A DNA stretch of 35,333 nt from Pseudomonadota bacterium (GTDB taxonomy: Bacteria > Pseudomonadota > Alphaproteobacteria > ATCC43930 > CGMCC-115725), in contig JAKAOO010000006.1 in NCBI GenBank assembly GCA_021812165.1, positions 1 to 35,333 on the forward strand, written 5' to 3'. Every line of letters starts with the position of its first letter. The stretch's first letter is position 1. The notes beneath the pieces are model-generated. The model worked only from the letters and a program-made list of their open reading frames with translations. It searched no databases and was not told where the DNA came from. Of this stretch, positions 7,009 through 25,347 are shown piece by piece. A program made the translations under genes and the position numbers.

Positions 7009-8391
7009 ATGCAAACAGCGTGGAGAGGAGGCATCGTTTCTCCGTGCGCTTGGGCGCGCTTCGCGCCGCCGGCGCTCGCCCTTCTTCTGTTCTTCGGATT
7101 TGCAGCGCCCGCCGGCGCGGATTCGGGAGGCCCGCAGCTAAAGATCATCCGCGACGCCGAGATCGAGACCGACATCCACACCATGATGACCCCGATCTGG
7201 AGGGCGGCGGGGCTCGATCCCGCTTCTGTCCACGTTTATCTCATCGAAGACCCGCAGATAAACGCGTTTGTCGCCGGCGGGCAGAACATCTTCATCAATA
7301 CGGGCCTCCTCCTCAAAGCCGACACTCCCAACCAACTGATCGGGGTGCTCGCGCACGAAACCGGCCACATCGCCGAAGGGCATATCATCCGCGCCGAAGG
7401 CGCGATGACGAAAGCGAGCATCGAGGGGATGATCGCGACGGCGCTCGGCGCCGCAGCGGCCGTGATGAGCCACAGCGACGAGGCCGGCGGAGCCCTCTTG
7501 CCGGGGCCGCTCGTCGCCGAACGCACCTTTGCCCATTATCGGGTTTCGCAGGAAGCCTCGGCCGACGCGGCGGCGCTCAGCTATCTCGACCAGACCCACC
7601 AGTCGGCGCGCGGGCTTTTGCAGTTTTTCGAAAAGCTGCAAAGCGACGAGATGCTGTCGGGTGACAGCGAGATCCCCTATTTGCGCGACCATCCTCTGAC
7701 CGAGACGCGCATCGAGCGGGTGCGCCAGCACGTCCTCCACTCGCCCTATTCGAACGCGCCCGACCCTCCCCGTTACATCGCCATGCTGAAGCGCATCAAG
7801 GTCAAGCTGCGGGCGTTTCTCTCCTCGCCTTCGGAAGTCCTCGGCGCTTATCCCGAAAGCGACCACTCGCTCCTCGCGCGCTATGCGAGAGCCATCGCCT
7901 ATTACCGCATCCCGAGGCTCAAGAAGGCGCTTTCGGAGATCGACTCGCTGATCCGCGACCATCCTGCGGACCCTTATTTCGAGGAATTGAAAGGCCAGAT
8001 GCTGTTTGAGAACGGGCATATCGGCGAAGCGGTCGCGCCTTACGACGCGGCGGTGCGGCTCGACCCCTCGTCGCCCCTTCTGCGCATCGAACGCGCCGAG
8101 GTCGACATCGCAACCCACAACAAGGCCCTCAACAATCGTGCCGTCGGGGACCTTACGGACGCCCTTTTGAGCGAACCCCTAAACGGCGAGGGCTGGCATT
8201 TTCTGGCGATCGCTTATGGGCGCGAGGGAAAAATCGGCATGGCGGCTCTCTCGCTCGCCGAACAGGGGCTGGCGGCCGGCAGGAAGAATGACGCTCTTCT
8301 CGAAGCCAATCGGGCGGAGCACCTCTTGCCGAAGGCCTCCACCTCATACGCCCGCGCCAAAGAGATCGAGCGCGAAGCAAAAGAGCTTTAG
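7009..8391 (+). CDS. M48-family metalloprotease with C-terminal TPR repeats (BepA-like)
   Basis: The product is 460 aa. A signal peptide is visible (hydrophobic core PPALALLLFFGFAAPAGA, cleavage near residue 43), so it acts in the periplasm. The peptidase M48 domain follows with zinc motif HETGH (His116, Glu117, His120) and third ligand Glu182 in QEASAD. The C-terminal half is helical with TPR-like repeats (about 280-450). BepA-type enzymes degrade or chaperone misassembled outer membrane proteins such as LptD. The start has a GGCGGAGG ribosome binding site. It lies just downstream of rne, an arrangement I recall from other alphaproteobacteria. The stop codon TAG directly abuts a palindromic repeat that may end transcription. 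Confidence 0.92.
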   Translation: MQTAWRGGIVSPCAWARFAPPALALLLFFGFAAPAGADSGGPQLKIIRDAEIETDIHTMMTPIWRAAGLDPASVHVYLIEDPQINAFVAGGQNIFINTGLLLKADTPNQLIGVLAHETGHIAEGHIIRAEGAMTKASIEGMIATALGAAAAVMSHSDEAGGALLPGPLVAERTFAHYRVSQEASADAAALSYLDQTHQSARGLLQFFEKLQSDEMLSGDSEIPYLRDHPLTETRIERVRQHVLHSPYSNAPDPPRYIAMLKRIKVKLRAFLSSPSEVLGAYPESDHSLLARYARAIAYYRIPRLKKALSEIDSLIRDHPADPYFEELKGQMLFENGHIGEAVAPYDAAVRLDPSSPLLRIERAEVDIATHNKALNNRAVGDLTDALLSEPLNGEGWHFLAIAYGREGKIGMAALSLAEQGLAAGRKNDALLEANRAEHLLPKASTSYARAKEIEREAKEL

Positions 8392-8564
8392 GAGGCTGCG
8401 GAAAAACTCTGCTGTCGTTCCGGGACGGCCCTTGAGGGCCGGGCCTGGAACCCATGAACATCAGCCAAGCCATTGATTTCACAGGCCTGTGTCGATGGTT
8501 TCCGGGATCACGGTCTACGACCGCGCCCCGGAATGACGACATTCCAGCATTTTCCCGCAGCCTC
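8392..8564 (+). repeat. palindromic intergenic repeat (REP/MITE-like), copy A
   Basis: The ends are inverted repeats: GAGGCTGCGGAAAAACT at the left and, on the other strand from the right, GAGGCTGCGGGAAAATGCTG. Internal parts include CCGGGACGGCCC..GGGCCGGG and GGTTTCCGGGATCACGG. A second copy in the same orientation is at 10394-10635. It immediately follows the stop codon of the M48 protease gene and may act as a terminator or mRNA-stabilising hairpin. A frame of 129 codons read across it is an artefact of the repeat. Confidence 0.8.
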
Positions 8565-8691
8565 TCAGTGCCCTTTTCGCAGCCTCGTCATTGCGTTCAC
8601 GTGCCGCTTCGTGGGGCATGAGACGGCTTCGCCGCACTTCCCATCACCGCGTCTTATTCCCGAACAGCTATTGGACGACGACGCCGCGCGC

Positions 8692-9528
8692 TCAGTGCGA
8701 CATCAGAACCGGCAGCGTCATCGTTTCGAGAACCGTCCTGCTCGCCCCGCCCAGCAAAAGCTCCCGCGCGCGCGCATGGCCGTAGACCCCCATGACGAGA
8801 AGATCGGCCCCGAGATCGGCGGCGCGCGACAAGAGAACATCGCCAACCCCGACTTCGCCCGCGACAGTGCGCTCGACTTCGGCCTTCACCCCGTGACGCG
8901 CGAGGTGGACCGAGATGTCGAAGCCCGGTTCCTCGCCGTGCTCGCCCGGGCGCGGATCGATCGCGAGCACCGTCACCTTCTTGGCGGCAGACAGAAACGG
9001 CAGAGCGTCGTTGACGGCGCGCGCCGCCTCGCGGCTCGCGTTCCAGGCGACGAGAACGCACTCTCCGATCTGCGGAAAGCTCCCGGCGTACGGGATGACG
9101 AGGATCGGGCGCCCCGACGCCAGAGCGATCACTTCGGGACGCAAGGGGGGCAATTCTTCTTCGCGGCGCTCGCGGTCGTGCTGGCCGAGGATAACCAAAT
9201 CGGCATAGCGGGCATGGACCGCGGGATCCGCGTCGGCGAACGACTGCGGCGATCGCCATTCGGCGGAAATGCCACGGCGAGAGGCGACGCGCTCGAATTC
9301 CTCGCGCAGCTTCGCCATGCTCTCAGCCAACTTTTCCTCGAGTCCGCGAAAAAGCGGGTCGAGCGCCGCCTGATCGTAGTAGCCAAAGGTCGGAAACCGC
9401 ACGCTCGGCAGCGGGTAGAGCGCGGCGAGATGCGCGCCGAATCGCGCGCCAAGCGCCGCCGCCAACTCGAGGTTCCGGCGCGAAGCCTCACTTTCGTCAA
9501 GAACGAGCAACAGATCCTTGTAACCCAT
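8692..9528 (-). CDS. universal stress protein, two tandem UspA domains
   Basis: The product is 278 aa and holds two UspA folds in tandem: domain 1 at about 1-140, starting MGYKDLLLVLDESEAS, and domain 2 at about 150-278. Domain 2 carries the ATP-binding signature G-2x-G-9x-G-S/T in GVYGHARARELLLGGASRT. Domain 1 has no clear version of this signature, so nucleotide binding is expected only in domain 2. UspA proteins help survival under starvation, hypoxia or oxidative stress. The ATG at 9528 follows GGGAGGGG. A perfect FNR/FixK palindrome lies 75 bp upstream, implying induction by low oxygen. Confidence 0.92.
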   Translation of the reverse strand: MGYKDLLLVLDESEASRRNLELAAALGARFGAHLAALYPLPSVRFPTFGYYDQAALDPLFRGLEEKLAESMAKLREEFERVASRRGISAEWRSPQSFADADPAVHARYADLVILGQHDRERREEELPPLRPEVIALASGRPILVIPYAGSFPQIGECVLVAWNASREAARAVNDALPFLSAAKKVTVLAIDPRPGEHGEEPGFDISVHLARHGVKAEVERTVAGEVGVGDVLLSRAADLGADLLVMGVYGHARARELLLGGASRTVLETMTLPVLMSH

Positions 9529-9575
9529 TCGACCCCTCCCGGGCGCGAAAAAGGCCTTGCCCAATTCGGTAACAA

Positions 9576-9616
9576 GTTATCTCAGGAGGAGGGAGATCAG
9601 CCTTGATCGAGATCAA
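9576..9616 (-). promoter_or_regulatory. FNR/FixK-type box and -10 element of the usp promoter
   Basis: The sequence TTGATCGAGATCAA at 9603-9616 matches the FNR/FixK consensus TTGAT-N4-ATCAA exactly. On the minus strand a GATAAC (9581-9576) sits 21 bp downstream of the box. With a start of transcription near 9569 the box would be centred at about -41, the usual place for an activator of a class II promoter. The usp start codon is about 40 bp further on. Spacing and promoter are read by eye. Confidence 0.8.
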
Positions 9617-9635
9617 CGAGCGCAGGTGAGGCGGG

Positions 9636-9836
9636 CTAAGCCTCGCGAAGTGCGCGTTCGCGCTCGCGCGCTTCGAACTGGAATTCCCGGCCGATCGCTT
9701 CGAGTTCTTCAGAAAGCCGCACGCCGGCAGTGCCGTGCGCCAACCGGAAACAACGCTCGGCCTCCCGCAGAAGCCATGCCGAATCCGCGCTCGCCGACGT
9801 CGCCCTCCGGGAAGTCCGCAGATCTTGCTTAATCAT
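9636..9836 (-). CDS. small hypothetical protein, 66 aa
   Basis: I do not recognise a characterised family. The product is a charged, probably helical protein with the segment WLLREAERCFRLAHG followed by EELEAIGREFQFEARERE. This resembles short unannotated proteins I recall from Hyphomicrobiales genomes with a LxREAxRCxRLA pattern, but I cannot check this. The ATG at 9836 has GGGAG nine bases upstream. It lies on the same strand as usp, upstream of the FNR/FixK box, and is probably transcribed independently of usp. Confidence 0.65.
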   Translation of the reverse strand: MIKQDLRTSRRATSASADSAWLLREAERCFRLAHGTAGVRLSEELEAIGREFQFEARERERALREA

Positions 9837-9932
9837 GGATGAACACTCCCCGAATGAGGGGAATATAGCCGCAGCGACCCGCCGCGGCGCGTGGCAAAGA
9901 TGGGGCGAGCCTTGTGCCGAACGCGCCCGAAC

Positions 9933-10393: not shown

Positions 10394-10635
10394 CAGGGTG
10401 CGGAAAAACCCCCTGTCATTCCGGGACGGCCCGTGAGGGCCGGGCCCGGAAACCATGAACACAGGCCAAACCATTGATATCTCGGGAATATATTGATGGT
10501 TTCCGGGATCACGGCCGCGGGCGACGTGCCGGGCACGGCCGTCGGAGGTTCGCCGCGAAGGCCGCGCAAGGCTGATAGCCCGCGGATCGACCGCGCCCCG
10601 GAATGACGACATTCCAGTATTTTTCCGCAGCCTCC
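10394..10635 (+). repeat. palindromic intergenic repeat, copy B, with extra 70-bp internal segment
   Basis: It has the same ends and internal blocks as copy A at 8392-8564 and the same orientation. It differs by an extra segment of about 70 bp (10515-10586) bounded by CCGCGGG and CCCGCGG, absent from copy A. The right end abuts the stop codon (10635-10637) of the alpha/beta hydrolase gene. As in copy A, the boundary reads CTTTAGGAGGCTGCGG, where TAG is the stop of the neighbouring gene. A 77-codon frame across it is a repeat artefact. Confidence 0.8.
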
Positions 10636-23856: not shown

Positions 23857-25347
23857 ATGGGCCGGGCGACGCCTTTCCTCCCCGACGCCCTCGCCAGGCG
23901 ATCCCTTTTCGCCGCGCCGCGGCGGCTGATGCGGACCCACGCCTTTCGCCTTGCCGCCCTCTACTTTCTCGTTTTTGCGGCCTCGATTCTGGGGGTTCTT
24001 TTTTTCGTCTACTGGATGAGCGCCGGCTTTGTCGAGAGAGAGATCCAGGCGACGCTCAAGGCCGAAATCACCGGGCTTGCCGAGCAATATGCGCAGCGTG
24101 GGCTTTCCGGCCTCGTCCAGATCGTCGCCGCGCGCAGCGCCGGCAATCGCGGCGACGCCAACCTTTATCTCGTAACCGCTCCCGACGGCCGGCCTTTGGC
24201 TGGGAACATCGCGGGCTGGCCCAAAGGCGTTCCCGCCCGCAAGGGGTGGTTGTCCTTTTCGATCGCGGCAAAAGTCGGGGGGCGGGTAAAGGTCCACCCG
24301 GCGCGCGGGGCGATCTTTATCATTCCCGGCGGTTACCGGCTCCTCGTCGGACGCGACATCAGCGACGCGGCGGCCTTTCGCGAACACGTCAAGCTGACGC
24401 TTCTATGGGCGGGTCTGGTGGCGCTGGTGGTCGGCCTCTTGGGAGGCGCCGCGATGAGCCGCAAGCTGTTGCGCCGCGTCGAAGAGGTCAACCGCACGAG
24501 CGAGCGGGTGATGGCCGGCAATCTCTCGGACCGCGTGCCGGAACGGGGAACCAGCGACGAGTTCGACCAGCTCGCCCAAAACCTCAACCGCATGCTCGAC
24601 CAGATCGAGCGTCTGATGACGGCGATGCGCGAGGTCACCGACAACGTCGCCCATGACCTCAAGACGCCGCTCTCGCGCCTGCGTGCGCGGCTCGAGCTGG
24701 CGCTCATCGACCCCGCCGAGGAGAGCGCCGCCGAGGCGATCCGTTCGGCGATCGAGGACGCCGACCGCCTGCTCGCCACTTTCAATGCCCTTCTCAGCAT
24801 CGCCGAAGCCGAATCCGGCGCGCGGCGGGGAGAGCGCGGTCCTCTCGATCTCGCCGAGGTGGCAAAATCCGCCGCCGAGCTTTACGAACCGGTAGCCGAG
24901 GAAAAAGGGTTCGCGCTTTCGCTCGCGGCCGAGGCGGGGAGCAGGATCCGGGGCGACCGCCATCTCTTGTCGCAAGCCCTCGCCAACCTCATCGACAACG
25001 CCATCAAATATGCGGGCGGCGGAGAGATCGCGATCCGCGTCGAAAAGCGCGGCGGGCGCGCCCTCCTCGAAGTCGCCGATCGCGGCCCCGGCATCCCCGA
25101 AAGGGATCGGGAAACCGTCTTCGATCGCTTTGTCCGTCTCGAACCGAGCCGCAGCACCCCCGGGAACGGGCTCGGCCTCAGCCTCGTGCGCGCGGTTGCC
25201 AGGCAGCACGAAGGCCGCGTCGAGCTTTGCGACAACGTGCCCGGCCTCATCGTTCGGCTCGACTTCCCGGCGCTCGATTTCATAAAGGAATTGCCCGGAC
25301 GGCCTTCTGCTGGCTTTTCCGCCATTCCGGCACGAGCAGGGGCCTAG
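23857..25347 (+). CDS. sensor histidine kinase (HAMP-containing)
   Basis: The product is 496 aa from the ATG at 23857. Transmembrane helices lie at about 32-54 and 180-199, with a periplasmic sensor of about 125 residues between. HAMP follows (about 200-250; MSRKLLRRVEEVNRTSERVM), then the HisKA dimerisation domain with the phospho-acceptor His266 in NVAHDLKTPLSRLR. The HATPase domain has N-box LIDNAIKYA, G1 DRGPGIP and GNGLGLSLV. It phosphorylates the adjacent OmpR-type regulator. A later ATG at 23929 (MRTHAF) would also keep all domains, so the exact start is uncertain. Confidence 0.94.
   Translation: MGRATPFLPDALARRSLFAAPRRLMRTHAFRLAALYFLVFAASILGVLFFVYWMSAGFVEREIQATLKAEITGLAEQYAQRGLSGLVQIVAARSAGNRGDANLYLVTAPDGRPLAGNIAGWPKGVPARKGWLSFSIAAKVGGRVKVHPARGAIFIIPGGYRLLVGRDISDAAAFREHVKLTLLWAGLVALVVGLLGGAAMSRKLLRRVEEVNRTSERVMAGNLSDRVPERGTSDEFDQLAQNLNRMLDQIERLMTAMREVTDNVAHDLKTPLSRLRARLELALIDPAEESAAEAIRSAIEDADRLLATFNALLSIAEAESGARRGERGPLDLAEVAKSAAELYEPVAEEKGFALSLAAEAGSRIRGDRHLLSQALANLIDNAIKYAGGGEIAIRVEKRGGRALLEVADRGPGIPERDRETVFDRFVRLEPSRSTPGNGLGLSLVRAVARQHEGRVELCDNVPGLIVRLDFPALDFIKELPGRPSAGFSAIPARAGA

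Follow-up and report, generated by a model that had tools for sequence, protein, structure and literature searches.

The question raised by this locus is whether a palindrome of the FNR/FixK type, located directly before a universal stress protein gene (usp), is a working control site, and which regulator would read it. The window (the whole stretch of DNA that was analyzed, 35,333 nucleotides) was found to contain one perfect TTGAT-N4-ATCAA match, TTGATCGAGATCAA on the plus strand; an earlier sequence-only reading had called it exact, and it has 0 mismatches. With up to two mismatches, nine matches were found in the window against 5.48 expected. On the minus strand the region reads TTGATCTCGATCAA-ggctgatctccctcctcctga-GATAAC, followed by the usp ATG at 9528 (Table 1). 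The gap between the palindrome and the ATG was 74 nt, in line with the distance of about 75 bp given earlier, and the usp start was backed by alignment with 13 homologues. The protein is a universal stress protein of the tandem type, and the label "two-domain" in the earlier reading is right because PF00582 matches twice. Our main reading, to which we give a probability of about 0.86, is that the palindrome works as a class II activator site, through which a Crp/Fnr regulator of the FixK type switches on usp.

The surroundings of the gene were found to contain a 66-aa open frame (MIKQDLRTSRR..., read by eye) directly upstream of usp; 19 nt separate the end of this frame from the palindrome. 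Copies of a dispersed repeat, about 180 bp long, were present on either side of the usp region; genome-wide, the repeat gave at least 44 matches (40 of 130 candidates scored), the long ones with 83–100% identity. The idea that the palindrome serves a divergent gene on the plus strand was also considered and rejected, as the 91-aa plus-strand frame had no Pfam match.

Table 1. Positions of the observed and predicted features in the window.
Feature	Positions	Strand	Basis
Two-domain universal stress protein, 278 aa	8692–9528	minus	Pfam PF00582 twice; alignment
Usp domain	about 9163–9522		Pfam Usp (PF00582)
Usp domain	about 8701–9057		Pfam Usp (PF00582)
Transcription start, predicted	9568	minus	geometry, site centred at −41.5
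Putative −10 element GATAAC	9576–9581	minus	weak, 4/6 TATAAT matches
FixK/FNR-type binding palindrome, predicted	9603–9616	minus	TTGATCTCGATCAA on minus, TTGATCGAGATCAA on plus, then GGC; enrichment and conservation
91-aa frame	9557–9832	plus	
66-aa open frame	9636–9836	minus	read by eye
Dispersed repeat, about 180 bp	8385–8570		
Dispersed repeat, about 180 bp	10404–10634		
HisKA histidine kinase domain	24625–24819		

The genome (3.66 Mb in 312 contigs, 95.89% complete) was searched for other TTGAT-N4-ATCAA sites, a check that the sequence-only reading had proposed. Perfect sites were found at 24 places versus one for the reversed control pattern, and the looser form TTGAY-N4-RTCAA at 52 places versus three. 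A crude gene call placed 13 of these 24 sites clearly between genes and seven at most 100 bp from the start of a called frame; the other four were inside a called frame, at a depth of more than 190 bp. The 40 proteins beside 23 of these sites were scanned, the 24th being the site in the window. The neighbors that fit a low-oxygen regulon were hemN (TIGR00538, above cut-off), a molybdopterin oxidoreductase gene preceded by one for a TtrB-like Fe-S protein (which scored below the curated cut-off), a piece of another molybdopterin oxidoreductase, an FAD/NAD-binding protein of the sulfide/dihydroorotate-dehydrogenase-like kind and one of the Crp/Fnr regulators itself (on contig C93). A P-type ATPase for proton efflux, three binding proteins of the ABC type, an amidohydrolase with an FMN oxidoreductase and others did not obviously belong to such a regulon, the ABC-type proteins and the amidohydrolase being untypical of one, and many frames beside perfect sites had no match in the protein scan. 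At L211 3900–9177 (G000, contig C146), where a perfect site precedes the TtrB-like Fe-S gene and the large molybdopterin oxidoreductase gene, the pair is possibly a tetrathionate-reductase-like operon. The other usp genes of the genome (on C89 and C2) contained no TTGAY-N4-RTCAA in the stretches read, and only weaker matches were present at the C89 gene.

Upstream stretches of 300 bp were compared for 28 usp homologues (the usp of the window and 27 from related genomes). Five of them contained a perfect site, and 13 contained one with no more than one mismatch. In 200 rounds of dinucleotide shuffling of the same regions, the mean was 0.15 and the maximum three at one mismatch, and each of the 19 remaining orderings of the half-site gave 0 or 1. 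The block TTGAT/C-N4-A/GTCAAGGC was kept in most of the nearest relatives that have the site. In a second set from named records, the best 80 of 584 loci, 33 of the 80 had the site with at most one mismatch versus one for the reversed pattern; the two counts are not independent because the sets overlap in several genomes (e.g., L067, L068, L069, L070, L116, L126, and L133), and related rows were counted many times in these upstream counts. Within 300 bp, 15 of the 28 and 47 of the 80 homologues had no site at one mismatch. Two loci (L061 and L062) were dropped from 30 because their hits start only at query residues 77 and 75, the starts of L047, L055, L063, and L064 were estimated from the alignment and do not coincide with start codons, and the site counts were restricted to hits that had a locus. 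A scan of the named genomes with the single usp sequence gave no relative; the scan with an alignment found relatives.

That the palindrome arose by chance and has no function is very improbable. It is true that the usp upstream regions of G002 and G004, from the same genus, contained no site at one mismatch. However, the genome-wide excess of perfect sites together with their conservation before usp homologues shows that the match is not a chance one, and chance was ruled out on these grounds. Against shuffles, the reversed pattern and permuted half-sites, the placement was non-random and conserved in relatives, as is asked of an FNR/FixK binding site, and the palindrome before usp is confirmed as a real, conserved control element.

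In the class II geometry, the site of an FNR/FixK-type activator is centred near −41.5 from the start of transcription. With its centre at −41.5, as in a class II FNR/FixK promoter, the palindrome would have transcription begin at the position predicted in Table 1. The hexamer GATAAC had been described as a −10 element spaced 21 bp from the palindrome. Its position and its spacing (21 nt past the palindrome, on the minus strand) were right; its promoter character is weakly supported, as only four of six positions match TATAAT and a sigma-70 scan of 9400–9900 gave no promoter-like site. Visual comparison showed a −10 of similar sequence and spacing in G005, the nearest relative (GATAAT, 22 nt), and in no other. 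The start point is likewise weakly supported. The weak −10 and the predicted start, along with a site-to-ATG distance that in most relatives ranges between about 55 and 110 nt, leave some room for a bound site that represses usp or that works from a different start (class I or roadblock). Such an arrangement is nevertheless improbable, since the spacing fits class II and the published usp targets of this site, in the portions of the reports cited here, were activated (PMC4263372; PMC7713065). Activation from a class II position is the reading that we retain.

The sequence-only reading would have failed if the genome had no FNR/FixK-type regulator, and such genes were present. Three clear Crp/Fnr genes were found with PF13545 (on C285, C93, and C188); a fourth match was sub-threshold and partial, in a frame unlike Crp/Fnr. 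Recognition helices of the ETVSR type read TTGAT. The C285 protein contained the helix ETVCR and the C93 protein AAVSR, and the closest solved relative of both was FixK2 (4i2o, 2.5e-33 and 2.4e-23, respectively). The C188 protein contained a different helix, SRESVNR. Among NCBIfam models, the closest to the C93 protein were FixK and FnrL, where FixK was best but below its cut-off (125.1 of 300). The N-terminal CxxCx7C pattern was absent from the C285 and C93 proteins and present in FNR-like homologues from the family and order (in G010, G012, G014, and G038); no cluster cysteines were seen by eye in the C188 protein either. Direct control by FNR was rejected, as no protein with the four cluster cysteines was found among the Crp/Fnr proteins of the genome. 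FixK is therefore the better name for the regulator, and it is likelier than FNR: two of these proteins are nearest to FixK2 and devoid of the FNR cysteines.

A FixL-like kinase was found on C15 (FixL heme-PAS structure 1dp6 at 3.3e-46, and also FixL kinase chimeras) and a FixJ-like regulator on C96 (FixJ 5xso at 3.7e-56), so that the heme-PAS kinase and the response regulator of a FixLJ-FixK cascade are both present as judged from sequence. The two genes are on separate contigs, and no histidine-kinase motif that could mark a fixL beside fixJ was found in 13 kb of C96. A HisKA domain is encoded in the window itself (Table 1). The oxidases comprised one CydA and two genes of the COX1 type, whose closest match was subunit I of aa3-type enzymes; no cbb3 oxidase candidate was recognized in the genome with PF00115, an absence that is tentative.

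The same kind of site could also be read by the C93 paralogue, apparently self-regulated, on another signal (nitric oxide or general redox), in which case usp would not be an oxygen gene. The perfect site before the C93 gene recurs at its 76% identical relative in G002. In the part of PMC2908626 cited here, the sites of FNR, FixK, and DNR are almost identical, and a Usp is among the DNR targets too. We consider this reading unlikely. The usp sites were also found in G003, G005, and G006, which are genomes without the C93 type, and this type was strongly matched in only one of the eight other genomes of the genus (G002; list at E ≤ 1e-25). The closeness of the C93 protein to FixK and FnrL models and to the FixK2 structure and the presence of FixL- and FixJ-like proteins likewise speak against it. 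The C93 gene (L207 5245–6009, G000) adjoins two heavy-metal P-type ATPase genes.

The genes for usp and for a FixK/FNR-type regulator were neighbors in several relatives. Both were present in the hit lists of 26 of the 41 genomes, and in 10 of these 26 they were within 10 kb of each other (nine within 5 kb), compared with about 0.5 for random placement; the count drew on hit lists only (regulator lists at E ≤ 1e-25), and fragmented assemblies can hide neighbors. In G013, usp and a fixK-like gene point away from each other across a gap of 380 bp that contains TTGACCTGGATCAA, and in G010 a site is also located between usp and a FixK/FNR-type gene. The usp of the window is on a different contig from both FixK-like regulators of its genome.

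Taken as sequence comparisons, these results give good support to low-oxygen control of usp by FixK/FNR. Against it count the weak −10, the homologues that show no site, the separation of usp from the regulator genes in this genome, and the perfect sites that are inside called frames or beside genes untypical of low-oxygen regulons. The control would proceed in the following way. When oxygen falls, FixL and FixJ would raise the activity of FixK. A FixK dimer, formed by one or the other of the FixK-like proteins, would bind the palindrome and touch RNA polymerase at the promoter predicted to start near 9568. The two-domain Usp would then be switched on and may help survival through low-energy, low-oxygen periods; a role of Usp in low-energy survival comes from the Pseudomonas literature as cited in a part of PMC2908626. 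We infer that the organism meets micro-oxic conditions. A more far-reaching proposal is that the low-oxygen circuit of this lineage gave up both its cbb3 oxidase and its Fe-S FNR and now works through FixL-FixJ and two FixK-like proteins, one of them self-regulated and with AAVSR for ETVSR (the usual helix glutamate being lost), controlling Usp, ABC-type solute-binding proteins, a proton-pumping P-type ATPase and a tetrathionate-reductase-like operon. This would be an unusual set, and we regard the proposal as doubtful. The 24 sites are a testable list for the regulon.

The sequence-only reading had also stated that FixK/FNR regulators activate usp genes under low oxygen in alphaproteobacteria, and the literature, in the portions cited here, agrees. 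Dufour et al. (2010; PMC2908626) count uspA (RSP0697) among the core members of the FNR regulon in alphaproteobacteria, backed by ChIP in Rhodobacter sphaeroides, and also note it (ID 129) in the FixK regulons known from B. japonicum and R. palustris. The RSP_0697 promoter-lacZ was activated by FnrL and CrpK (PMC4263372). In Sphingopyxis granuli TFA, uspA (SGRAN_3353) is monocistronic and anaerobically induced, with an Fnr box centred at −41.5 (PMC7713065), and in Bradyrhizobium diazoefficiens several Usp proteins were induced under micro-oxia (PMC6515984). As usp is already in the established FNR/FixK regulon of alphaproteobacteria, the site described here is an ordinary and well-supported example, and its only mildly unusual points are the C93 paralogue and a FixK standing in for FNR.

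As far as the cited portions of these reports go, R. sphaeroides uspA resembles the present gene in having an FNR-type palindrome directly before it. Its usp and fnrL have consecutive locus numbers (RSP0697 and RSP0698), comparable to the usp and FixK/FNR neighbors in several relatives here, whereas usp of the present genome is apart from the regulator genes. In R. sphaeroides the regulator is an FNR, whereas the present genome gave only FixK-like proteins, which lack the cluster cysteines. The uspA of S. granuli likewise has a box at −41.5, a position that is predicted in our case; S. granuli, according to the same portions, is a nitrate-respiring sphingomonad with two FNR proteins, unlike the present organism. 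With the FixLJ-FixK2 cascade of B. diazoefficiens, our genome differs in having FixL and FixJ on separate contigs and no recognized cbb3 oxidase gene, and agrees in that FixK2 is the nearest solved relative of both the C285 and C93 proteins. The low-oxygen control of Usp of Rhodobacter, Sphingopyxis, and Bradyrhizobium thus extends to an uncultured alphaproteobacterial lineage, which appears to use FixK-type proteins in the place of FNR.
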